Origin: Spinacia oleracea
Lineage: Eukaryota; Streptophyta; Magnoliopsida; Caryophyllales; Amaranthaceae
Assembly: GCF_020520425.1 (NCBI RefSeq)
Contig: NC_079492.1
Location: 145,483,861 to 145,547,860 of the forward strand
Length of the DNA stretch: 64,000 nucleotides
Direction: 5' to 3'
The first letter of the stretch is position 1, and the number at the start of each line of letters is the position of its first letter. The notes under the pieces are model-generated. The model saw nothing but the letters and a program-made list of their open reading frames with translations. It had not been told where the DNA came from and did not search any database. Of this stretch, positions 5,153-61,492 are shown piece after piece. A program made the translations under genes and the position numbers.

Positions 5153-5982
5153 TGTTGGAGTTATTCTTACAAATTAATTCTCTTATCATTGCTTAATATT
5201 TTCGGCTATTTATAACCCAATAATCCGAAAAGGTCATAACTACCATACATATTTAGTTCTTAAAGAGGTTTTAGTTTAGTGATTAATACTAGTAAATTGG
5301 GTATAATATATCTCTTATTCAACTTCCTATATTTATATTGCCCTTATTGTTAACTGGAAAAAAAAAAACCTTTACATAAAATTGTTTCTCATAAAGAAAC
5401 GTAAATTGTGACTATATTCACCAATCAGGCAATCACCAGTTCACCACTAGGAATCTAGGATGAACTCACACAAGCACACATTCACACACACGTTAGGAAG
5501 CGGTAGCCCAACTAAGTGCGAGTAGTAGTACTATTCAATACATAGCTTTTAAGTTTTTAGTGGGGAGGTGTTGGATTGTTGGGCCTTTTACATCTAGCCC
5601 ATCATAAAACAAACAAGACTAAGACCCTTACAAGGTTGAAACTTCAATTTCTTTGTAGAAAAAAGTATAGGTCATCTCTTATAGTAATTTTTTTCGAAAA
5701 TGATAAAGGTCGCAACATGCGACCTTTAAGCCTTATCACAATTATGATATGGTATGGCATGCTTATGTGTCATGATTTAAATTGGAAATTATAATATTTA
5801 ACTTATATAACATATTATACATGTTTCAGAAAAGGTTTTGGATCCTTTAGAGTTCTAAAATAACTCTATAAGGTAGAGTTTGAGCATATCAACCATTAAA
5901 TGAAAAATCAATGGTTCATATATTATCTTTCCAAAATTCCCCCTATTTTTTCTCATCGATATGAGCCATTGATTTTAAAATG
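5153..5982. other. Intergenic with one sharp palindrome
   Basis: No gene recognised. At 5704-5728 there is a near-perfect palindrome around AGGTCGCAACATGCGACCT. A related palindrome (GTCGCAACTTGCGACC) lies at about 6497-6520, on the other side of the MITE at 5985-6311. A 72-codon frame at 5576-5794 crosses the first palindrome and has no recognisable domain. Confidence 0.4.
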
Positions 5983-5984
5983 TA

Positions 5985-6311
5985 CTCCCTCCGTCCCGGA
6001 ATACTCGACCCGGTTTGACCGGCACAGAGTTTAAGGGACTTGAATTGACTTATTTAATTTAGTAGGTAGTAGTAGATAGTGGGGCATTATTTTAATGTAG
6101 TTAGTGGGAAATGTGTAAAGGGGTAAGGTTGGGGGAGAGTATGGGTTGAATTTTTAATTATTTTTTGTATGGAGTAGGGGGTAGGTGGGTTAATAGGGGT
6201 GGAGTGAGAAATAATATAATATTGTTAGATATTTTCATTTTTAGAAACAGGTCAAGTATTAAGGGACGGCCCGATAAGGAAAACATGTCAAGTATTCCGG
6301 GACGGAGGGAG
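5985..6311. mobile_element. Stowaway MITE, 327 bp
   Basis: Terminal inverted repeats CTCCCTCCGTCCCGGAATAC at the left and the reverse complement at the right, flanked by TA on both sides (5983-5984 and 6312-6313). This is the TSD and terminus type of Tc1/mariner-derived Stowaway elements. No coding capacity. Confidence 0.85.
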
Positions 6312-10866: not shown

Positions 10867-11176
10867 TGTTGATTATAGCATTATCATTCTATGCATTCTA
10901 ACAGTTTAGTGATGCTGCTTTCCTAATGCTGTAGTGTTGCTGCTGATGCTATGCTGTTGTTTTGCTGCTGATGCTGCTTTGTCAGCACACAGTCAGCAAG
11001 TTAGTTATGAGTTTGTTATAACAAACTTTAGAACAATCTAGATCCCTAAGCTGTACTATATATACTTCATTGCTGTAATATTTATTTCATTATCTAATAC
11101 AGAAAAACAGAAATAAGATTCTGCTTTCTTCTTCTTCTCTCAATCAATATTTTCCATTCTGTTTCGTTTTTCTTCA
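10867..11176 (+). repeat. 5' LTR of the copia element
   Basis: 310 bp, TGTTGATT...TTCTTCA. A TATATATACTTC box near 11058 and the pyrimidine-rich end suggest U3/R. The repeated TGCTGCTGATGCT words in U3 may be enhancer-like, which is inference. Confidence 0.92.
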
Positions 11177-11192
11177 TGGTATCAGAGCCAGG
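11177..11192 (+). other. Primer-binding site of the copia element
   Basis: TGGTATCAGAGC directly after the LTR, complementary to the 3' end of initiator tRNA-Met, the usual primer of plant copia elements. Confidence 0.85.
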
Positions 11193-14100
11193 ATCAACGA
11201 TCCTTGGCTCATTTTTTCTAAAAAAATTCCGCAAAACTGTTAGCATTTCTGTCTTTGTTTGTTGTCTAATTGATCAATCGATTCTAGTGTTTGTTCACTG
11301 GAATTTGTGGTATTCTTTCTGATTCTGGATTTGTGTTTCCATTGGTTTCTGATTTTGTCTTGATCATCTTGATCAAAACTGCTGATATTTTGAACAAAAC
11401 TGCTGAAAATGGCTGCTGGTGATGAGAATGTTAACACCAATTCACACAAAGATCTTCCACCAAATCAAGATCCAACTAGCATATATTACATACATCCATC
11501 TGATGCTAATTCAGTACAACTGGTTTCATTCAAGTTCAATGGTGAAGAAGGATTCACTAGCTGGAAAAGATCGATGCTATTAGCTTTATCAGCAAAGAAC
11601 AAAATTGGATTTGTTGATGGAAGCTACATGAAGCCAGATGCTGGAACAGTAGAATGCAAAGCTTGGGAAAGGTGCAATGATTTGGTATGCTCTCTGATCC
11701 TAGGCAATCTGAATGAGGTAATTGCTAAGAGTGTTATGTTTCTCAAATCTGCAAGAGACATTTGGCTTGATTTAGAGGATAGATTTGGATTTGCTTCTTT
11801 GGCTCAAATTTATTCACTCGAACAAAAATTAGCTGAGATAGCACAGGGAAACAAGTCTGTGTCTGAATTTTTTTACTGAAATCAAGTCTATATGGGATGC
11901 AATTGAAGAGGCTCATCCCTTGCCTTATTGCACCTGCAACAATTGTACTTGCAATGTGACCAAGAAATTTTTCCAAAGACAACAGGAAAAAATGGTCATG
12001 CAGTTCATGATGAAGCTCAATGATCAGTTTGCTACAATTAGAGGCAATGTACTCATGGTGCCTACTTTGCCAAAAGTTTCTGAAGCCTACAGGTTGTTTG
12101 CTCAAGAAGAAAGACACAAAGAGGTGTCTCAGGCTAGTAATCAAGTGGAAACATTGGCATTTGCAGCTGAAAAGAGAAGATTCAATGGAGATCACTGGAA
12201 CAATAACAACAAGAGCTACAAGACTCAGCAAACAGGATTTCAATTTGGTTTTCAGAAAACTGGAACTAATACAAGATATGGTAAACCAGGATCCAACTAT
12301 TATTGCACTCATTGTCAAATCCAGGGTCACAGTGTGGAGAGATGCTTCAAGATCCATGGTTATCCACCTGGTTTTAAGACTAGGGACAACAAAACAGCTG
12401 CTGTTTCTTTTGGAGGTGATTCTAATGAAGGAGAAACAACAGTGCCACAATCTGAAACTAATCCAGTGATTACTATGGACCAATATCAACAGCTCATGGA
12501 TATGTTGGCTAAGCAAAGCAGAGTGCAGGGACTGGAACAAACTCAGCTATGATGGCAGGTAATATTTGTTTACTGTCTCATACAAATTCTAAGTGGCTTT
12601 TAGACAGTGGTGCTTCAGACCATTATTGCTATGACCTGACACAATTTACTAGTTATGAAGCTGTTAAGAAACAAAACACCTACATAACTATACCTGATGG
12701 GAGTAAAATAGCTGTCACTCACATTGGTTCAGTAACTCTTAATGATGACATAACCCTAAATAATGTGCTGTATGTACCAGATTTTAAGTACAACTTAATA
12801 TCTGTGCACAAACTGTGTCAAGATTTGGATTGTGAGATTCACTTTACTCATGACAAGTGTTTTGTTTGCTGTCAGCAAGGGAAGTTGATTCCTCTTGGTG
12901 ATGTGAAGTCAGACTTATACAATTTGGCAGAAAAGAAGTTGGGAGAAGCTAATTCTGTGCAGACACACACATGTAGTGTAGCTTGTCTTTCTACTGTAGA
13001 CAATGCCAAGTTGTGGCACTTAAGACTTGGTCATTTACCTTTCAGTAGGTTGAAACTAATAAACCCTAGCTGTGTGATCACACCTTGTTTACAGGATACT
13101 ATCTGTCAAGTATGTCCTGCTGCCAAACAGACTAGACTTAGCTTTCCTTCTAGTAGCATTAAGTCAACTAGTCCTTTTGATCTTATACACATAGATATTT
13201 GGGGCCCTCATTCTGTAAAAACTCCTACTGGATGTAATCAATTTCTGACAATTGTGGATGATTATACCAGATTTACTTGGTTACATTTTCTGAAACAGAA
13301 AAGTGATTGTGTTACTGTCATGAGCAATTTCTTAAACATGGTGAAAACACAGTTTGGAATGACAGTGAAATGCATCAGATCAGACAATGCTAAAGAGTTT
13401 TGTGAAGGTGACATGAAAAAATTATATCAGACTCTTGGTATTTTGACTCAAACTAGCTGTAGTCATACTCCACAACAGAATGGTGTTGTAGAAAGGAAAC
13501 ACAAGCATTTACTAGAAACAGCAAGAGCATTGTACATTCAATCCAAGGTGCCAGAGAGGTATTGGGGAGAGTGTGTCCTTTGTGCTGCTTATCTGATCAA
13601 CAGGATGCCTCTACAATCCTTAGATCTTGAAACACCTTACTACAGATTGTTTAAACAAACTCCAAACCTCTCACATTTAAGAACCTTTGGTTGTCTTTGT
13701 TATGTATCCACATCTAAGGTTGGGAGAAACAAGATGAATCCTAGAGCAACACCTTGTGTGTTCATGGGATACTCTGCTACTCAGAAGGGATACAAAGTAC
13801 TGGAGATAGACACAAATAGATTCTTTGTAACCAGAGATATCCATTTTCATGAGAAACATTTTCCTTTTCATCTCTATCTAAAACACAGCCTTTCACCTTC
13901 TCCCTATACTAATGCCATCTACTTACCTAGCTTCATGTCACCTACAATTTTTGATCCACCTGATTTCACTTCTTCTGCAAACATCTTTCCACCTCACTCT
14001 TTGCCTATACATTCACCATCACCCACAGAATCAGCCACATCTACAGATTCTGTGCATACACAGTTCAATTCTTCTCCATCTCCAACACCACCTCCCTCAA

Positions 14101-15920
14101 ACACCACTCAAACTCCTAATAACTCTAACTCTTCTTCTGAATCCCACCCAAACACCACTCATTCCACAGATTCCACTTCCAGTTCCTCCAATTCACCTCT
14201 CCCTTATCCTATTATCAGACAATCTGCAAGAATACATAAACCACCAGGTTACTTAGATGCTTATGAGTGTTTTGCAGTATCATCCACCAACACAGACACC
14301 CCTGTTGTCACCAAGCATTGGTGTAATCTAGTTTCATATGTCACATTTCCAGATGAATTTCAAGCTTTTTTGTCTCAAGTTTGTACTATCACAGAACCAG
14401 TGTCCTATACTCAAGCTGCTAAACATCCATTATGGCTTGAAGCAATGAAGAAAGAACTGGAAGCCTTGGATAGAAACTACACTTGGGAATTAGTGGAATT
14501 ACCAAAAGGAAAAAAGGCTATAGGGTGCAAGTGGGTGTTCAAAGTGAAATTGAGATCCACAGGTGCACTGGAAAGGTGCAAAGCCAGATTAGTGGCTAAA
14601 GGGTACAACCAGAAGTATGGTATTGATTATGAGGAAACTTTTAGCCCTGTTGTGAAGATGAGTACTATTAGATGCTTGCTAGCAGTTGCAGCTAGTAGAA
14701 AATGGCCCCTTTTTCAGCTAGATGTCAATAATGCTTTCCTACATGGGGATCTCAAAGAAGAAGTGTATATGCAGATGCCTGAAGGGGTAGACAATCCAAC
14801 CAACAAAGTTTGCAGATTGGTTAAATCCATTTATGGCTTAAAACAAGCATCAAGACAATGACATGAGAAGTTGTTGACTGCTTTAGAGACACAAGGTTTC
14901 ATACAATCCAAGTATGACTACAGTTTGTTCATCAACAAACAAAATGGTCACATCAACATTGCAGCAGTTTATGTAGATGACATCATTTTGACAGGAACAG
15001 ATGTTGATACACTGAAAGCATTAAAAGCATATCTTCATCAAACATTCAGTATTAAGGATCTAGGGAGGTTAAACTATTTCCTTGGTATGGAGGTGGGCTA
15101 TACTACAGATGGGATTATTCTGAGCCAGAAGAAGTTCACTAGAGAACTTATTGAATCTTGTGGTTTTGATACCACTAAGAGAGCAATCACTCCTTTGCCC
15201 ATGACTGTTAAATTATCAAACACAGAAGGAGAGTTCTATTCTGATACTGAGAAATATAGGTCTTTAGTAGGAAAACTCAATTTCCTAACCCACACAAGAC
15301 CTGACCTTTCTTATGCTGTCCAAACTCTCAGTCAATTTTTGAAGAATCCTAGAGAACACCATGTGGCAGCTCTGCACCACACTCTAAGATATCTAGCACA
15401 CACTGAAGGTCAAGGGATATTGCTGAAAGCATCAAATGCTGTTAGTTTACAAGCATTTTCTGACTCAGATTGGGCATCTTGTCCTGATACTAGAAGATCA
15501 GTCACAGGGTACATTTTATTGCTTGGTGGATCACCAGTCTCATGGAAGTCTAAGAAGCAAGGGACAGTTTCCAAATCCTCTGCAGAAGCTGAATATAGAG
15601 CAATGGCAGCAGCTGCCTCAGAAGTTACTTGGATTGTCAACCTGTTAGAGGACTTGGGAGTTCATCATTTGAAGCCAATCACATTACACTGTGATAATCA
15701 GTCAGCCCTCCACATTGCTAAAAATCCAGTGTTTCATGAACGCACTAAACACATAGAGATTGACTGTCACTTCACCAGAGATAAGGTTTTGGAAGGGCTA
15801 CTGCATCTAAATTACTTGCCTACTCAGCAACAATTAGCAGATATCTTCACTAAGCCATTGTGTTCTACACAATTTCAGACACTTCTTTCCAAGATTGGAG
15901 CTTGTGACGCTCCATCTTGA

Positions 15921-15927
15921 GCGGGGA
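15921..15927 (+). other. Polypurine tract of the copia element
   Basis: The purine run GCGGGGA, part of GAGCGGGGA, abuts the start of the 3' LTR and fits a plus-strand primer. Confidence 0.6.
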
Positions 15928-16237
15928 TGTTGATTATAGCATTATCATTCTATGCATTCTAACAGTTTAGTGATGCTGCTTTCCTAATGCTGTAGTGTTG
16001 CTGCTGATGCTATGCTGTTGTTTTGCTGCTGATGCTGCTTTGTCAGCACACAGTCAACAAGTTAGTTATGAGTTTGTTATAACAAACTTTAGAACAATCT
16101 AGATCCCTAAGCTGTACTATATATACTTCATTGCTGTAATATTTATTTCATTATCTAATACAGAAAAACAGAAATAAGATTCTGCTTTCTTCTTCTTCTC
16201 TCAATCAATATTTTCCATTCTGTTTCGTTTTTCTTCA
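15928..16237 (+). repeat. 3' LTR of the copia element
   Basis: 310 bp, same length as the 5' LTR and almost identical to it. The CTAGG target copy follows immediately. Confidence 0.92.
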
Positions 16238-21376: not shown

Positions 21377-21595
21377 TATAGAATTTGAGAGACAGAAATG
21401 GATTCAAGAGAGAGGAGAACTCATTCTCATTAATCAAAAATAGAATCGATCAAATGAAAAATAAGAGGAGCTAGTGTTTATATACACAGTGAGTCAGCAA
21501 CTATTCTAACAACTTGACTAACAAACTAACTACCTTCTAACAAACTTCTTGGAGAAGAAATAATAAATATAAGTTAATGATGTCATAATCCTATA
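21377..21595 (-). repeat. 3' LTR of the minus-strand copia element
   Basis: 219 bp; on the minus strand TATAGGATTATG...AATTCTATA. A purine run (AAGGGGGGAG, minus strand) sits immediately upstream as polypurine tract. Confidence 0.93.
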
Positions 21596-24500
21596 CTCCC
21601 CCCTTCAAGCTGGACCTTAGAAGTAAGTCCAAGCTTGGCAGAAAGAACCTTATGCTGAGAAGAAGGCAAGGGTTTAGTAAGGACATCAGCAAGTTGATTT
21701 AGGCTAGAGACATGTTCTGTTTGTATGAAACCAGTGTCCACTAGCTCACGAACATAGTGCATATCTCGCTTGAGATGTTTAGTTTTGTCATGGAACATTG
21801 GGTTCTTAGCAAGATGTTCAGCAGATGTATTGTCACAATACAATGGAACAGGTAAATGAATAGCTACCTGCAGATCCTCTAGAACACCTTGTATCCAAAC
21901 AAGCTCACTGGCAGTAGCAGACATACTCCTGTATTCTGCTTCAGCTGATGACTTGCTAACACTGCGTTGCTTTTTGGTTTTCCAAGAAATTAAATTGCTG
22001 CCTAGGAAAACAGCATAAGCACTGAGTGATCTGCTACTGAATTGGCAAGAGCTCCAATCAGCATCACTATAAGCAGATAACTGTGCTTTAGATTGAACAG
22101 AATACCAGATACCTTCATCAATAGTTCCCTTCAAATATTTAAGCACATGTAGAGCTGCTCTTAAATGAGGAACTCTAGGAGAGTGAACAAATTGGCTTAA
22201 ATGTTGCACACTGTAGGACAAATCAGGCCTTGTAATACCTAGATACAACAAACGACCAACAAGTCTCCTGTAAGTGTCAGGTTCATCAAGCAACTCACCA
22301 GTATCAGTGGATAACTTCAAACCACAAGACAAAGGAGCAGGAGCAGCTACACAATCTTCCATGCCAGCATCAGTTAAGATATCTTTGATGTATTTTCTTT
22401 GAGAAAGGAAAATACCATCAGTGTTTCTATGAACTTCTATACCCAGGAAATAGGAAAGCTGACCAAGATCTTTAATGGTGAAAGCAGTATCCAATAAACC
22501 CTTGAGTTCTTCAATCTGGCTTACAGAAGTTCCAGTGACCAGTATGTCATCAACATAAACTAAAACAACTGTAAATTCAGAATTCTGAGTTCTTGTGAAC
22601 AAAGAATAATCTTGCTTTGATTGCTGAAAATTCACGCTAATCAGGAACTTACTTAACTCTTTGTTCCATTGTCTAGAAGCCTGCCTTAATCCATATATGG
22701 ATCTTTTGAGCTTGCAAACTTCATCTGGTTTTGCCTTTTCATAACCAAGAGGAGGTTTCATGTAAACCTCTTCATCAATGTAACCATGCAGAAATGCATT
22801 GTTTACATCTAGTTGAAACAGTTGCCAACCTCTCATGGCAGCCAAAGCAATTACTATTCTGACAGTAGCCAGCTTTGCAACAGGTGAAAAAGTTTGAGTA
22901 AAATCTTTGCCTTCAACTTGTTGATACCCAATTGCAACCAGCCTTGCTTTATGTCTTTCTATTGAATGATCAGGATTCAATTTGGTTCTGTACACCCATT
23001 TTGAACCAATAGCCTTCTTATCTTTAGGTAAAACTGTGAGCTCCCATGTATCATTACTCTCAAGAGCAAGAAGTTCTTTGTTCATAGCATCAATCCAGTT
23101 GCTGTCATGCTTAGCTTGGTGATAATGCTTTGGATCATTAGATGTAGGAAACACTGAAAAGGCTAAAGATTCCCATGTATCATAATTGGTAAGAGCCATG
23201 GCTATCAGCCAACTGTCATCAAATTCCATGTCATTGACTAAAGAATCAACAGAAAAGGAAGCCGACTCAGTGGTAGAAGGTGATTCAACAGCCCTGTGAG
23301 GGACATAACTTCCAACAAAGTCCTTCAGAACAGAAGGTGGTTTAATTGTCCTAGTGGATTTTCTGATGACAGGTTCAGTGGGAGCAGTTGTCAAATCAAA
23401 CACAGGTATAGATTGAGAAGTGTGTATAGAAGGAGAATTTGAAGTAGATAAAGGAGAAGATGGATTATTTATGGGATTAGTGTTTATGGAATTTGAGCAT
23501 TGAAGAGTAGGGGAAAGAGAATTGTGAGAAATATGATAATGTGAATCAGAAGGAGAAGAAGAAATAGAATCAGTAGTGTTTTGTTCAGAAATTTCAGTAC
23601 CAAAACTTATTGGTGGAGATACAGATGGTAAGCTTTTGACAGAAGAAGAAAATTTGTATGGGAAAACAGTTTCAAAGAAAACAACGTCCCTTGAAACAAA
23701 AACACTATGAGTATCAAGGTCATACAATTTGAATGCCTTATATCCAGCAGGATACCCAATGAAGACACACCTCCTAGTTTTGGAATCAAACTTATCTTTA
23801 TGAACATTTGTGTTATAGGCAAAGCAAAGAGATCCAAATACTCTTAGTCTTTCAAATAGAGGTTGAGAATGAAACATTATTTCAAATGGAGTTTTCCAGT
23901 TCAACACCTTTGAAGGAAGCTTATTGATCAAACTTGTAGCAGTCAACACACATTCCCCCCAGAATTTCTTAGGAAGACCAGAATGAAATCTTAAGGCTCT
24001 AGCCATTTCAAGCAAACTCCTATGCTTTCTTTCAACCCTACCATTCTGCTGAGGGACATATGGAGCACTCTTTTCATGCAATATTCCTTTCTGTGCAAAT
24101 AATGATTTGCAACTGTCTTTTACAATCTCTGTACCATTGTCAGATCTAATCCTCTTAACTCTCTTGTCAAACTGAGTTTCAACCATGACAAAGAATTCAG
24201 AAAGCACCTTTGTGACTTGCATTTTATTATGAAGAAGATAAGTCCAAGTTACTCTACTGTGATCATCCAACACAGTTAAAAAATAAGAAGCACCATCTAA
24301 GCTTTTAACTTTGTAAGCTCCCCATAGATCCACATGAATCAATTCAAAACATTCAGATGCTCTACAATCATTGTATGCAAAAGGAAACTTATGTTGTTTG
24401 GCATTGAAACATACATCACACTTGTACTCTGTAAGACCTTTACAAAATTCAGCATTCACATGCTTCATCTTTGACAAGGAAGGATGACCTAACCTAGCAT

Positions 24501-26433
24501 GTAAAAGATCTAACTGGTTGGTATGATCCAACTGGGATTGTTTTATACTAGTAGCAATTTTATTTGGTAATCTGATTGTATTTACATCAGCAACAACATC
24601 AGATACATCAGCTACTGCATTACAGTTTAATTCAGTGCTAACAGATCTTGTACTATGCCCATCTTGAGATATCCTGCAGTCTGTGTCTTTGACAAAATAG
24701 TAGAGACCTTTGTTTCTCTTTCCAGCACCAATCAATTTGGAACTACAGGGGTCCTGGAAAGAATATCCATCACCAGTAAAAACAACATGAACACCAGTTT
24801 GCTCGATCAACCTACCAACAGATAGCAGATTATGCCTAAAGCCATGTACTAGCAACACATTGGTCAGGATCAGTTTATCACTAAGAATCACATCCCCTAT
24901 AATACTGACATTCATCTGAGTTCCATCAGGCAATCCTACTTTGATTGATTTGTTCAATTTTCTTTTATTGATTAACAAATCAGCATCATAAGTCATGTGA
25001 TCACAAGCTCCAGAATCTACAATCCACAAGCATTCATCATCCAATTTGTTCACATTACAGTTAAAAGAATGAGTTATTATACCTGCATAGTTGGCAAATG
25101 AGCAGGCAATACCACTGGCTTCACTATTCTGTGACTGTTTGCCTTTCATCACCTTCATGACTTCCTGACATATAGTGTTCAGCATCTCATTAATGATATT
25201 TCCAGCATCAACCATTGTATCATCAAGAGGATTATCTCCCATATCTGCAGAATGAACATTAGCAGCCAGCCTGTTTCCACCATTTTGTGAATTCTTTGAA
25301 GCCTTGATAGAGTTATACCAATCAGGATAACCTATGAGTTTAAAACACTGATCAACAGTATGCCCTTTGACCTTGCAATGAGAGCATGTTTTGTACATTT
25401 TCTCCTTTTTCAGATCTTTCCAATCTTTCTTCACTTGACCAGTATTGAATCTCTGAAATTGACCTCCCTTATGAGTCTGAGCAACCATTGCACTGCTGTT
25501 CATGGCACTGCTTTCAGTAGCAGCAATGTTAACTTCCTTTTGTTTTTCAATTTGTTGAGTTATAGAAAATACTCTGTTAATACTAGGCAATGGATCCATG
25601 GACAAAACATTTGTAACAGTCCCTTCAAAGCCTCCATTCAATCCAAGAAGAAACTTCATCATTTTGTCTTCTTCTTCGAACTCAGCTACCTTTTTCATGA
25701 ACAAGCAACTGCAACTATTCATAGCACCACACACACAGGTAGGAAAAGCCCTTAAACTTTGCATTTCATCCCAGAGTTTCTTTAATTTTCCATAGTATGT
25801 GACTATGGTCATATTTTCTTGATTCAAATTATCAATCTCCTTTTTAAGCTGATATATCAGAGGACCATTAGACTGACCAAATCTCTCATTCAATTCTTTC
25901 CACAACTCTCCAGCATTGTCAATATATCCAAAATCATCAGCTAAATCAGTGTTCATAGAGCTCAGAATCCAGCTAACCACCATGAAATCAGCACGTTTCC
26001 ATTTAAGATAATCCTTATGATTCACATCAGGTTTCTGAATTTCTCCACTAATAAAACCTTCTTTATTCTTAGCTATTAGTGCTCTTTTAACATTTCTACT
26101 CCAACGCATGAAATTCACACCATTGAATACCACAGATACTAATGAAGAAGTCGGATTATCAGAATTTGCTATAAAATAGGGATCAAAAGTACCTCCATTA
26201 TCTCCATTAGTCTGCTGAAAGCTCTGTTGATGATTACTGTCTGAATCTCCAGAAGTCATTGCAATCAACTTCTTTGACGATCAATTCAATCACAGCTAAC
26301 AAATGAATCAAGAATTCTGCGCAAGAAACTTCGCAATCGCAAGAAATTTCGCAGCAAAACCGTCACAGATGCATACACTTTCAATGTATGAAATCAGAAT
26401 TTTAAGATAACCTAAGCCTAAATCTCGAGCTTG

Positions 26434-26452
26434 AGATTTGGCTCTGATACCA
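26434..26452 (-). other. Primer-binding site of the minus-strand copia element
   Basis: On the minus strand TGGTATCAGAGCC follows the LTR with no spacer, complementary to initiator tRNA-Met. Confidence 0.85.
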
Positions 26453-26671
26453 TATAGAATTTGAGAGACAGAAATGGATTCAAGAGAGAGGAGAACTCAT
26501 TCTCATTAATCAAAAACAGAATCGATCAAGTGAAAAATAAGAGGAGCTAGTGTTTATATACACAGTGAGTCAGCAACTATTCTAACAACTTGACTAACAA
26601 ACTAACTACCTTCTAACAAACTTCTTGGAGAAGAAATGATAAATATAAGTTAATGATGTCATAATCCTATA
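26453..26671 (-). repeat. 5' LTR of the minus-strand copia element
   Basis: 219 bp, same ends as the other LTR. A GTGTATATAAACAC-like stretch (minus strand, near 26555) is a candidate TATA element. Confidence 0.93.
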
Positions 26672-26676
26672 CTCAG

Positions 26677-44372: not shown

Positions 44373-47300
44373 CTAGTCTTATATGCACGCGATGCGTGCG
44401 AATTTTTTAAAAAACCTAAAATTGGGTTGTTACAACTAATCACGTCAAATATTAAGCGCTTCAAAATAATTCACATAGTTCATATTTAAAAACAATGAGG
44501 TCATACAAATATGTCAATCTAAATAATGAATCGGTTAATCTAAATATTAGTACTAATGTAAAGTAATTCAACATACTACATATAAAATAGTGTGTTTCAC
44601 ATTTTTTTTCTTTTCGCAATGTACTTGCTTAATCACATGCACTCCTTTGCACTTATTTCCGAACGTTGGGAATACTGTTTCCATGTCTCGATTGCGTCCA
44701 TTAAACTGCATGAACATTAAAAAAATATCTTTTAGTGTTAAAACACAATAGAAGCTAATTAATTCAGAAAATTACTTAGTCAGGGTAGCTTGAACTTGTT
44801 GAAGTAATAATTTTATTTTATTTTAGTAGCTAATCACCTTTACCAAATTTTTCTTTTTTAAAATTTTATTTTCTAAATAAGTAAAGAACTCATAAGTTGA
44901 AAAAATAAATGATTATTATCGGAGTATAAAACATACGAAGCAGTCACTCATACTCTAGAAAATATATGAGCTAATTAATACGGAGTACGGAGTAAATGAT
45001 TATTATCGAAGTATTTAGGTAGGAATTCAGAGTTTTTTTGGGGCTTCTAGAAACACATCATACGGAGTATCCGAGGAACAATTGCTCCTTCTCTAACCTA
45101 TTTGTTTCTCTCTCCTCAAATTTGAGCAAAAATGACGATTACTATATCTCCTCCTCTCTCTCACCTATTTTCTTAACTCACCTCTTTAAGTCTCTCTCCT
45201 TAATGATGAGATGCCTGGCGGATTCACCGCCGATAAGGTATGGTTCACCGTCTCCTCTCTGGATCTACTCCTGGTTCACCGTTCACCATCTTTAGATCTC
45301 TTCTCTGGTTCGTTCAACTCTCTCCTCCTATTTTATCTTCTATTTTTTCCTTATTTCTTTGTCATCTCTCTCGTTTCTCTTGAGTCCTGGTCGCGTTTTG
45401 TTTAAGTGATTTTATTATCATTTTTTGCTTTTTATTTCTTGTGAATTCTATTGATTTTTTTTGCTTTTTTTTCTTTCTAAATTTCAAGATCTTGTTGTTT
45501 TGGCTTTGATTTATCGTCTTTATGTTGTTTTTGTTTAAGCACTAATTATTTATGGTGTTTTTTGGTTTGCATGTCGTGAAATTCTATGGATTAGAGGCGA
45601 TGGGCGAAGCGCTGAGCGAGGAGATGGGCAAGGCGATGGGCGAGGCACCGGACCCAGGTATGAATTAAATTTACCTTTATTTTAATTTTGTGGGTTAAGC
45701 ATGTCCGATGAGCTTATTCAGCATTTGATTTTGTTTTTTATAATCAAGGGTTTGGGCTATTTCCATGAGATTAGATTTGTTTGGTTTTGTTAATGCTATT
45801 CTGTACTTTGCAATGGAGTTTGTGATTTTCTAGTGATAATTTGTCGATTTATTTGGGAATTTGGATGTAGTTGTTGTGAATTTGGGTGTTTAAAGAATTG
45901 TCGGAAATTAGGGTTTTTGTCCCAGTGTAATGTTCTCGCTTTTTCCAAAATGTGGTTGTTTATTGGAGCTTATTCTGCATTTGATATGAAGGATTGACTT
46001 GATACGTTAATTAAATCTGATAAAATTAGGGTTTTAAATTTGGTGAGTTTAAGCATGTTCGGTGTTTTTTTCCAGAACTTTTTGTTCCATCCAGATTTAC
46101 TTGTTATTTAAAATTTGGGAGTTTAAGCATTTTTTATTTTCTAATTATTTCTGGTGTTTTTTAAAAAAAAATTGGTGAGTTTAAGCATGTTCGATTTTTT
46201 TCCAGACCTTTATTTTAACCATATCTGACAAAATTGCTGGTATATGCTAGATTGCTAGCTATATAACTTGGCTTTAGATTAGTTCAATTGTTCTGATTAG
46301 TTAAGTTAATCTGAAAAGTTTAATTGTTTTCTGTTGTTTTGATTAGTTTAATTGTTATGATTATTTCAGTTAATCTGATTAGTTTAGTTTATTCTTTTGT
46401 TTTCATTAGTTCATTTGTTCTGATAGTTCAGTTTAAGCATTGTTCTCTAGGTAGTTTGGTTCAATTCGTAATAGTGTGTTTGTTTTAGTATGATAGGTTG
46501 TATATAACATTTGCCTTTTAGGTTTCTTTACAATAATGGTGACAACAGTGTATTATATATGCAGGTACAACAAAACGAAACTATTGGTTTCTCTTCCTCT
46601 CTATTGACTGCAAAAAGGTCCGTATTTTGCGTGTTATTTTTTCTGGATTGTGTTTTTTAGTGTATTGCATTCCTAGAACCTAATAAAATATGAAATTAGA
46701 GATTAAAATCAAATAAGTGATTATTTAATTAAAACATGAACTAAAAATCTGTATTAATTAATTAAAATAAATAGAAGCATACATATTACTATTTATTTTT
46801 TTAAGATATTGATGGGGCACATACCTTATGTCATGGGTTATTGTATGACTTGACGAACTTAACAACCAACTTAAAATCGAACTTAGAACAGAAATAAAAA
46901 CCTGCAAAAATAATTATTTATTTCAAATTTTCATGATTTTAGATTATTTGTTTCGTAGATTATTTCAGATTTATTTTAATTAAAAATATGAATTAAAATC
47001 TGAAATAATTAACTAAAATCAATAAAAGTATACATATTACTTAAAATTGTTTCTGTTTAAGAGATTGATGGGGAACATACCTTAACTCAGCTCTTTGGTT
47101 ATTGTATCTTGTTATGAACTTAAAACGCAAATTAAAAGCTTCATAAAAACCGATGCAATTCATAATTCCAATAACACAAATTTATCTTATGTCATATATT
47201 TCGAAATCTGCAATTAGATATTAAAATCAAGTAAAATTTTAAAATATGAAATAATTAATTAAAATCAATAAAAGCATACCTAATATTTTGAAATCAGCAT

Positions 47301-48175
47301 AAAAAATAAACATGAATTAGAATATGAAATAAGCATGAATTAAAATATGAAATAATTAATTAAAATCAATAAAAGCATGCATATTATATTACATACCTTA
47401 TATTTTGAAATCTGCAAAAACGCAAGTATTTTAGTTAGACAGATTCAATCTACATAGCAACAATCATAAAAAAGAACATTTGTTTATACATAGATATTTA
47501 CAAATGTGCATAAGAATCATAAAAAAGAACATTTGTTTATGCAAAGAAATTATGCATAAAAACTTGTTTAGTTTCTGTTTTTATTTTCTTGCAAGGATTC
47601 GGGAGAAGATGTTACTTACGTGTATCGGGACGACTTGAAGAAGAACGGTGATGGAGTTCTTCTGGAGTTTTTTATTGGAGTTTTTCTGATTTGATTTGTA
47701 ACAATTTGTAATAAGATTTATGCTTGATTTCTTGGTTGGTTTATGCACATATTCTTTTTCTAGTTTATGCGTGATTTTCCTTAGGTTATGCGTGATTTTC
47801 CTTGCTGGGGGTTTATATGCATATTTCTTGGCTGGATTTACGGATGATATTTCCTTATTTGCTTTGTATTTTGACTTTTTTTTGACAGATTTTTCTGTTT
47901 TGTGAAAGATTTCAAAATAACAGGATTCTTTCCATTTCAAAATAATTGTAATATTTTCTTTTCCTTTTCCTTATTTTCATTTATTTCCTGATTTAATCAA
48001 TCAATCAACACCAACTTTGGTAATTGAGTTAACAGGATTGATTTTGGGCGTTACTTTAAGGTTTGTCGTGCAATTAAACTGTAGAACTGTGTAGGGGTAT
48101 TTTAGTCTTTTAACTGGGGGACACGAAAAGCATAATTACTAAAATGACCTCAGCTGTTCCTTTATAGAATAGAGA
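44373..48175 (-). mobile_element. Helitron, 3.8 kb, with gene-like cargo
   Basis: Minus strand: 5' end TCTCTATTCTATAAAGG after A, with CTTTTCGTGTCCCC 50 bp in; 3' end hairpin GCACGCATCGCGTGC, ATATAAGA, CTAG, then T. The same ends define the Helitron at 59223-61256. No Rep/helicase frame was recognised. The plus strand holds what looks like captured genic DNA: a pyrimidine-rich leader (45070-45210), a GC-rich piece with repeated GATGGGC ending CCCAG then GTATG (about 45595-45659), a T-rich intron-like stretch, a small exon-like piece after TATGCAG (46565-46618), and another near 47597-47690. Source gene not identified. Confidence 0.7.
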
Positions 48176-58957: not shown

Positions 58958-59876
58958 AGGAAATGTATACTGTAGTTAAAAATATAGAAACTACTTTATC
59001 CTTCTCTTAATACTCGTCCCGTTTTTCTTATAAAGTCGTCCCTTAATACTCGTTTTATTTCTATAAATGGCATACATTTACTAATATTACATCATTTCTC
59101 ACTTTATCATTGACCTACATATATTTCTTACTTCCTAAAAAGAACATTAAAAAATCCAATCCCCACCCACCTTACCTCATCCCAACCCCTTTATTGGACA
59201 TTTTCCCCTCTAACTATATATACTAGTCTTATATGCACGCGATGCGTGCGTGAGTATAAAACCAAAAGTTTTATTATTAGGCAAAAAAAAAATGTTTACA
59301 AAGTCTATCTAAACAAATAATACTTCGTATTATGCATCATCTATTCATCTATATTAAAAATATCTAAAGCGCAACTATGTAGCCGACTCATGCCCTTACA
59401 TGATAAAAAAAAATTAATTAATTGTAAAGCAAAAGTAAAGATATTGAACATATATAGTAGTGTTTCAATCACTTGTTTATTTTGATTGCAATATTGCGTA
59501 ACCATGTGCATTCCTCCATCATATCGCTTTGTAACAACTAACATTATAAGAAAATCCCCGTTTAAAAAATTTAATTGTTGGAGTAACACCCACGAAAAAA
59601 AATTGTGAATTACTCTATCAAAAGGTGTTACACGCATAAGATGTACAATAAATTTAGTCTACAATAACTTTTACCTACTTTTTTTTGTAACTTTTATGTA
59701 GTTTTTTGTACTTTTAATCTGTTTTGAATAGCTTCTATATTAGAAATAAAAAATGACAGATAAACATTTTAAAAGGTTAATTTTATTAGTGGATTTGAAG
59801 AAATAATTTTTATTAAAATGAAAAGTCATTAAAAAAAGAGATAAGTAATATTTCGTATATATACATCTATCTATTA

Positions 59877-60325
59877 TCTATTACTTTATACTAAAACAGA
59901 CACCAGGAATGACACATGTCACTTCCTGGTGTAAAATTTTTCCGCCTAAAACATTTTCCTAAAATATATGTTCGAAGTATCTTTTTTATTTTATTTTTAT
60001 TCTCTACCTTTTTATAAATTATCTTTGTATGGAAAAAAAATATTAGTTTATAAATTTTGGCAATAATAGATATCACGTAATAATAATTTTGCTAAATATG
60101 TTTTGATAATATTTTAGCCAAATCGATTCATTAGTAATGTAAAATATATTCGCTCGATATGTCGGTCAAATTAGCATATTACACATATAAAATATGCATA
60201 TAGATGAATAAATTTAAATGAGTATATTCAAAAAATTTATAATTATGCAGTAGTTTCGAGATATTTAGTTAAATATTTTGTAAAATAAATGATCATAATC
60301 CGTGCGTGCACGGGATCTAATCTAG
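59877..60325 (+). mobile_element. Non-autonomous Helitron, 449 bp
   Basis: 5' TCTATTACTTTATACT after A; subterminal palindrome CACCAGGAATGACACATG...TCCTGGTG; 3' hairpin CCGTGCGTGCACGG, GATCTAAT, CTAG, then T. Full-length relative of the 42712-44367 outer element. Confidence 0.85.
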
Positions 60326-60650
60326 TAATACATATGTAAGAGTTAACCTTTATCCGGCGTACCTGTAATAATAAGGATTTGCGTTTCCTTAATATTTTTG
60401 ACACGCAAATAAAACATCGTTAATTAATTACACGGAAATTTCCAAATTTCTGGCAAAAGCTATTCAAAATAAGGATTTGCATTTACTTAATATTTTTGAC
60501 AACAACGACCCACTTCAAACCCACGTCAGAAAGCGGCCACAAACTAAATCAAACCATTCTCTCTTTCCCCAACTCAAAACTCAGAAAGGAGAAGATGGAA
60601 ACCCCCTTCTTCTTCCTCCAGCTTTCTATTAAAAAAAAAAATTAACAAAG

Positions 60651-60849
60651 ATGGCAGAACCCCAGAATAACAACAACAACAACAATTCAAACCAAACCAC
60701 AACCAAAGTAGCAATCCCACCATACATGAAAGCAATTTCAGGTTCAGCCGGAGGATAGTAGAAGCCTCTTGTTTACAATCGATTGACGTCATCAAAACCC
60801 GGTTACAGCTTGGTCGGGCTGGAAATTACAAAGGGATTTTTCATTGTGG
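60651..60849 (+). pseudogene. Captured first exon of mitochondrial succinate/fumarate carrier
   Basis: From an ATG at 60651 the sequence encodes MAEPQ, an Asn run, then KVAIPPYMKAISGSAGG; in another frame it continues VEASCLQSIDVIKTRLQL and GNYKGIFHCG. This is the start of a plant SFC1-type mitochondrial carrier (compare IPPYMKAVSGSLGG, CLQPIDVIKTRLQL in Arabidopsis At5g01340). A base is lost after the GG codons (frameshift), the Pro of the PxDxxK carrier signature is Ser, and the Asp codon after RLQL is missing. The exon ends at TGTGG followed by GTAATTT, an intact-looking donor site, and intron-like sequence follows. A short leader with GGAGAAG and CTTCTTCTTCC precedes it. It lies on the plus strand of a minus-strand Helitron, so it is a transposon-carried genomic fragment and not functional. 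Confidence 0.85.
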
Positions 60850-61492
60850 GTAATTTCATGATTTTATAGATCCAAAAAGTGTTTGTACACATTTTGTTGC
60901 TGATACGATGTTAGAACTCATGTTAATATATACGGAGTATATTTTTTTTGGACATAACTTCTAGCGTGATTGGAGGGTCAGTTTGCTGTGATTCAGTTGT
61001 TGTGATACAATTATGGCGTAATTTTTGGTCTAAACAGTAATTATATTGTGATTACTGATTTGATTGTATTTTTCCTTTTTTATTTTTTGGCCTGCGGTTT
61101 AACTTTTGGTTGTCTATCTACGGAGTACTTATTTCACTTTTTATAATATTATAAATTAGTGTTAATATAATAAGTAGGGGTATTTTAGTAATTTAGAGGG
61201 GACACGAAAAGTTATTTTACCCAAATACCCTCAGCTCTTGGCTTATGTAATAGAGATATATAAAAAATAAAAAAACAAAAAAAAAACCACTACAACTACT
61301 ATCACCTAATAAATTAATAAATCAATTAAAATGCTTAAAACTATGTGTCGGTCAAAGTGAGGCGAGTATTAAGGAACGGAGGGGGTAAATTGATAAGGTG
61401 ATTTAAAGTGAAAAGATACTTGGTTGAATGAATTGTTTAAGGAGATAAAATGTGTTAATTTACCTTTTTTTGAATACTAGACACAAAAGGTA

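Follow-up and report, generated by a model that had tools for sequence, protein, structure and literature searches.

This locus raises the question of whether a stretch of spinach DNA resembling the start of a mitochondrial carrier gene is host sequence carried by a Helitron and, if so, how much of the gene was taken and by what route. The window is a stretch of 64,000 nucleotides from Spinacia oleracea (C6:145483861-145547860), and whole-genome DNA searches covered the 894-Mb assembly of 242 contigs to which it belongs. A preliminary description of the window had proposed that a minus-strand Helitron picked up the unspliced first exon of such a gene, complete with its splice donor. The cargo is very probably the start of a carrier gene captured by a non-autonomous Helitron and spread by transposition. 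That a carrier gene piece moved as cargo is well supported: three copies end at identical termini, an older relative shares their high-side junction, and an open donor-type gene exists elsewhere. The proposed exon end, unspliced origin and lost codon are not borne out.

The coding fragment

The coding portion of the cargo (60651-60849, plus strand) starts with an ATG at 60651. It runs MAEPQNNNNNNNSNQTTTKVAIPPYMKAISGSAGG and continues from 60755, shifted by one frame, as IVEASCLQSIDVIKTRLQLGRAGNYKGIFHCG; the leader ends in IPPYMKAISGSAGG, followed by the frame change into IVEASCLQSIDVIKTRLQLGRAGNYKGIFHCG. The start codon, the leader and the carrier motif are recognisable, as had been described. 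The second piece, of 32 residues, matches the Pfam family Mito_carr with 18.7 bits (E 0.0014), which falls under the 22.3-bit cut-off because the piece is short. The first piece, of 35 residues, has no Pfam match, and a PDB search with the 32-residue piece returns weak matches only (best E 0.11).

Compared with an open resident gene elsewhere in the genome, the fragment covers codons 1-65 of a 140-codon exon 1. Across the 195 coding bases there are 11 substitutions (9 nonsynonymous and 2 synonymous), one 1-nt deletion and one 6-nt insertion. The deletion, just before 60755, is the frameshift, and codon 42 is changed from CCG to TCG (P42S), so that the frameshift and the altered signature proline of the preliminary description are both real. 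The codon it reported as lost is not: none is missing relative to the resident gene, and two Asn codons are extra (one relative to loci L009 and L010). The frameshift is found in the window and in L009, and in the C2 copy it is indicated by the absence of a difference at the site together with a split match. Two further copies on C4 (L011 and L012) carry a stop codon instead of the window frameshift, and L011 also has a 1-nt deletion just after the ATG. The carrier cargo looks like a decaying fragment of a gene start, and 60651-60849 is best described as a degenerate copy of a mitochondrial carrier gene start, lying within a minus-strand Helitron.

The donor-type gene

A full gene of the SFC1 type was sought in the same genome, and one open gene was found at C6 137.3 Mb (L013, minus strand), ~8.2 Mb from the window locus on the same contig. 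Its exon 1 is open over 140 codons (L013 4848 to 4429) and scores 71.7 bits against the mitochondrial carrier repeat (PF00153, cut-off 22.3). The second coding exon lies ~4.3 kb further on, with an open frame of 178 residues. A whole-genome protein search with exon 1 gives 12 matches. Eight of them are pieces of the five cargo copies, each interrupted by stops; the other four are the resident exon itself (100%), the second exon of that gene (39%) and two different carriers (36% and 38%). This search reveals no second gene of this carrier type, and a single one is apparently all that is seen in the genome. The gene presumably encodes a succinate/fumarate carrier, a name that goes back to the Arabidopsis SFC1 (At5g01340) sequence and to the preliminary description; an NCBIfam search yields no family, and among solved structures the closest chains are those of UCP2 and UCP1.

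The 5' flank of the resident gene contains an inverted-repeat (MITE-like) insert at about L013 5255-5805, with arms of ~156 bp at 80% identity. This insert is not seen in the captured copies, and it interrupts the gene's match to a repeat block in the window (59602-59823) that is described below.

The Helitron and its copies

The fragment lies within Helitron A, a non-autonomous element of 2,034 bp on the minus strand (59223-61256). The element is delimited by its termini and by two other copies, which substantiates the minus-strand Helitron of the preliminary description. The 5' end, next to a flanking A, is TCTCTATTACATAAG at 61256. The 3' end consists of a hairpin (GCACGC-ATC-GCGTGC), 8 nt, and CTAG followed by T at 59223. 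Helitron A thus has the 5' TC and 3' CTRR typical of these elements (TCTCTATT ... CTAG), and the short hairpin expected about 10 nt before the 3' end is present as a 6-bp stem 8 nt ahead of CTAG. A sibling on the same strand, Helitron B (44373-48175, 3.8 kb), was used to fix the termini; its 3'-terminal 28 bp are the same as those of Helitron A and its 5' end is related. No RepHel of its own was found in Helitron A, which contains no frame of 120 aa or more. RepHel genes are present elsewhere in the genome: 353 candidates, of which 150 were scored, give at least 154 matches to PF14214, and many of these have long open frames. The window also contains two retrotransposon-like units, of copia type by eye, at 10867-16237 and 21377-26674. 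Their terminal repeats are 99.7% and 98.6% identical, respectively, and both have long gag-pol-like frames.

The DNA search gives nine matches: the window itself, one on C3 (99%), one on C2 (98%), two on C4 (86%), the resident gene at C6 137.3 Mb (88%) and three that span 42 bases. With E values of 3e-148 to 4e-87 at the five further places, the cargo match is more than chance. The preliminary description had suggested looking for other Helitrons with the same cargo, and the C3, C2 and C4 copies are such elements. The C3 copy matches window positions 59220-61257 and the C2 copy 59212-61259, after which both diverge, so that similarity among the C6, C3 and C2 copies ends at the termini, as expected of a mobile element. 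The C3 copy differs from the window at 4 of 2031 bases and the C2 copy at 7 of 2024, while C3 and C2 differ from each other at 9 of 2026. All three full-length copies examined sit between an A and a T and show no target-site duplication. The flanks on C3 and C2 show no alignment at the element ends; they share a 579-bp match at 80%, at least 1.4 kb from the element and at opposite ends, which we read as a dispersed repeat.

The two C4 copies are a tandem duplication (99.9% over 9.6 kb), and at most four independent insertions are therefore seen. They appear to be an older lineage of the same cargo. The 5' end of L011 is disrupted, with a hairpin-CTAG-like end near 5661 (by eye) and the 5' end of an opposite-orientation Helitron at 6148. 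A second, nested Helitron of 449 bp, N1 (59877-60325, plus strand), with an A followed by TCTATTAC at one end and CTAG followed by T at the other, is present in the three young copies (window, C3 and C2) and absent at that site from L011 and L012. This distribution suggests that N1 landed in the cargo after capture.

The remainder of Helitron A consists of two chassis parts. The 3' part (59223-59601, minus strand) is common to two loci that lack the carrier cargo, L007 on C4 and L008 on C1, at 82% and 87% identity, with homology ending at 59606 and 59600, respectively. The start of the 5' part (60859-61256, minus strand) is shared by the same loci from 60859, over 73 of 398 bases in L007 and 209 of 398 in L008, and other DNA lies between the two parts. 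Both loci were examined as 3-kb stretches, in which no complete 5' end was found. L007 and L008 would represent the ancestral state before the cargo arrived; if so, the cargo replaced ~0.85 kb (as judged from L008) or ~1.1 kb (from L007, which has an extra insert).

Junctions and route of capture

The cargo tracks the resident gene through codon 65 (GGG) and then departs from it, the gene continuing with GGGACAACTG and the window with GGGTAATTTCATGATTTTATAG. Aligned by eye, this high-side junction reads GGGACAACTG in the resident gene and GGGTAATTTCA(T/C)GATTTTATAG in the window and L011. The junction is shared by these young and old copies, which points to one capture. The junction segment itself (60850-60858, plus strand, read by eye) comprises ~8-9 nt of filler-like sequence and creates a donor-like GG/GTAATT; these bases could alternatively be diverged chassis. 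On the low side, ATTGT is common to the window, L007 and the resident gene, while L008 has GATGT (by eye).

Upstream of the ATG, the 5' flank and leader of the carrier gene (60370-60650, plus strand) show blockwise similarity to the resident gene and contain a short additional repeat (60467-60500). For L011, similarity to this gene reaches ~276 bp upstream of the ATG, over the same stretch that the window matches in blocks. Further out, the segment at 59602-59823 (plus strand) belongs to a dispersed repeat that is also found upstream of the resident gene in the same order and orientation; 59602-59780 aligns to L013 5999-5817, and 59800-59823 also aligns. This block was probably captured along with the carrier gene. 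However, a search with 59602-59823 returns 1,591 first-look candidates (40 scored), and since the segment is a dispersed repeat its presence in both places could be coincidence and is only suggestive. The use of 59602-59780 as clean proof of a captured promoter is weakened by this result. Between the repeat block and the leader, a shuffle test against the resident gene lends mixed support: it speaks for homology in L011, whose score is reached by 11 of 2000 shuffles. The corresponding score for the window is reached by 449 of 2000 and lends no support for homology over that stretch. The collinear upstream DNA suggests capture at the DNA level.

Repair-type capture seems the probable mechanism, although with a good deal less assurance than the capture itself. 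An interior break or replication slip would have occurred in an ancestral element already bearing a dispersed sequence termed module X (see below). Repair would then have copied in the first 65 codons together with the ~276 bp that precede the ATG, probably also the upstream repeat, with this piece replacing ~0.85 kb of older interior. The chimera could have spread by rolling-circle transposition driven in trans by the RepHel of autonomous Helitrons, giving rise to an older lineage now on C4 and, after the second Helitron landed, to the young lineage on C2, C3 and C6.

The internal position of the cargo, with shared sequence on one side and filler-like bases on the other, appears to fit repair better than read-through beyond the 3' end. 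Cargo placed internally, with filler or brief homology at its borders, is what the filler-DNA model predicts in the available portion of PMC6544945. A route by 3' read-through or end bypass has a precedent in Helraiser, for which read-through beyond the 3' end was shown and measured in cell culture (PMC4778049, in the part at hand). However, read-through would be expected to leave the cargo beside the 3' end; here it is flanked on both sides by chassis that relatives share, and the element finishes in the 3' terminus of its own family, which favours repair and makes read-through unlikely. The low-side ATTGT occurs in only one of the two relatives, and for this reason read-through is given somewhat more weight than it would otherwise receive and capture as a whole is called very probable and not certain.

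Module X

Module X lies in the interior of L007 and L008 (L008:1280-1560) and is also found at L042-L055. It is a leader-plus-intron-like sequence in ~40 scored places, and 60859-60912 of the window, at the start of the 5' chassis part, is its tail, a segment over which the window is matched by 8 of 14 X loci. A search with L008 gives at least 43 matches (40 of 70 candidates scored) at 67-89% identity, the query itself aside, and a search with the L049 copy gives at least 40 (40 of 112 scored). These lists take in the query copies, L007 and L008, and the L008 search also takes in the window, C3 and C2 elements. A consensus of 15 X sequences agrees best over ~360 bases. The possibility that the L007/L008 interior is one captured gene was rejected, the sequence being dispersed.

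Downstream of module X, 31 same-strand frames are listed at L042-L055, ten of which, from nine loci, were scanned against Pfam. Four exceed the cut-off (PUB2_N, TPR_At1g68980, Tim17 and Myb), and five have no Pfam match. Below the cut-off are a kinase on a fifth frame and a CHD1 helix-turn-helix on the Myb frame. Of 29 control frames, upstream or antisense, ten of the longer ones were scanned, with none over the cut-off and two below it. Because the frames were hand-picked, under different length limits (60 and 80 residues), this comparison is a lead and not a test. As a lead, it hints that in several loci module X may lie upstream of unrelated host genes on the coding strand. A literature search for a known dispersed leader module found nothing relevant, as judged from the listed titles.

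A more ambitious reading is that the Helitron lineage is a promoter-swapping vehicle, which carried module X and then exchanged its front for the carrier upstream region, ATG and 65 codons, so that the join falls a few bases short of a conserved X motif. This idea is speculative and we regard it as doubtful.

Promoter, exon and resident-gene interpretations

The cargo might also be active as a promoter and exon trap in its new locations, as in the bat Helitrons bearing NUBPL. The ~276 bp of 5' flank, the ATG and the junction GT are all kept, and the bat elements offer a precedent (PMC4778049, in the part at hand). However, the frame is broken in the copies examined, the second Helitron sits in the upstream part, and the window has an altered version of a TATA-like string found in the resident gene (by eye), all of which makes a working function improbable.

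The coding match ends at the donor-like GG/GTAATT, and this was the basis for describing the cargo as a complete first exon that includes its donor and runs into intron 1. However, resident exon 1 codes on through that point for a further 75 codons, to L013:4429, while the window diverges; the GT at 60850 is therefore a product of the capture junction. The whole-genome search with exon 1 shows no other gene of this type that might have a shorter exon, and the sequence from 60859, where an intron would be expected, is common to cargo-free related elements and module X. The anticipated match into intron 1 is accordingly absent, the captured part stopping inside exon 1 after codon 65 of 140. Capture of a complete exon 1 with intron sequence was rejected as very improbable on account of the longer resident exon and the lack of a paralogue. 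The captured stretch crosses no intron, so an unspliced origin can neither be read from it nor scored. The cargo is better described as a 5' piece of exon 1 with upstream DNA.

The alternative that the locus holds a resident gene in decay, or what is left of a tandem copy, and lies near Helitron ends by chance draws on the open gene on the same contig, but it is rejected as scarcely credible, because the whole 2-kb unit occurs with clean ends at C2 and C3 and the exon 1 protein search of this genome shows only the two fragment frames at the window locus, with no further gene piece or adjoining exon.

Relation to known Helitrons

The finding is of an ordinary kind, a host gene fragment carried by a plant Helitron; gene-piece capture is a well-known habit of these elements. 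According to a 2026 review, maize Helitrons that carry gene pieces number in the thousands and draw on hundreds of genes (PMC13317346, available part). The closest plant parallel is the maize series ZmhelA2/A3/A4, in which, as far as the available text goes, relatives share termini, differ in their interiors and carry host gene pieces acquired stepwise; stepwise internal capture is described there (PMC3288121, section 9). The present case involves another plant and donor gene, and in spinach older interior sequence seems to have been lost on capture. The bat element HelibatN3, with its NUBPL promoter piece (same portion of PMC4778049), is alike in carrying an upstream region, start codon and codons that end at a GT, and in having multiplied. 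However, the spinach cargo is seen in five copies, two of which are one tandem duplication, contains 65 codons in contrast to 6, has a GT made by the junction, and is known from sequence alone. The insect Hel1 elements, according to the accessible part of PMC6544945, likewise have internal cargo with short junction homologies that are read there as filler-DNA repair, whereas here homology is found on one side only (in one of the two relatives), with filler-like bases on the other.

The literature disagrees on Helitrons in spinach: in the parts available, PMC7840529 reports its Helitron cluster from beet alone, with none of it in Spinacia, whereas PMC6337768 lists 1,297 Helitron elements in spinach. 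A literature search found no account of this carrier cargo.

The picture of what Helitrons do stays unchanged by this locus. However, a single genome here offers a donor-type gene, both junctions, cargo-free relatives, two lineages of different age and a nested Helitron, and with all these parts together the capture route can be read at the base level. The dispersed leader-like module upstream of unrelated genes may be worth more attention. If the lineage did act as a promoter-swapping vehicle, Helitron lineages like that of Helitron A could seed host genes with new leaders and promoters.
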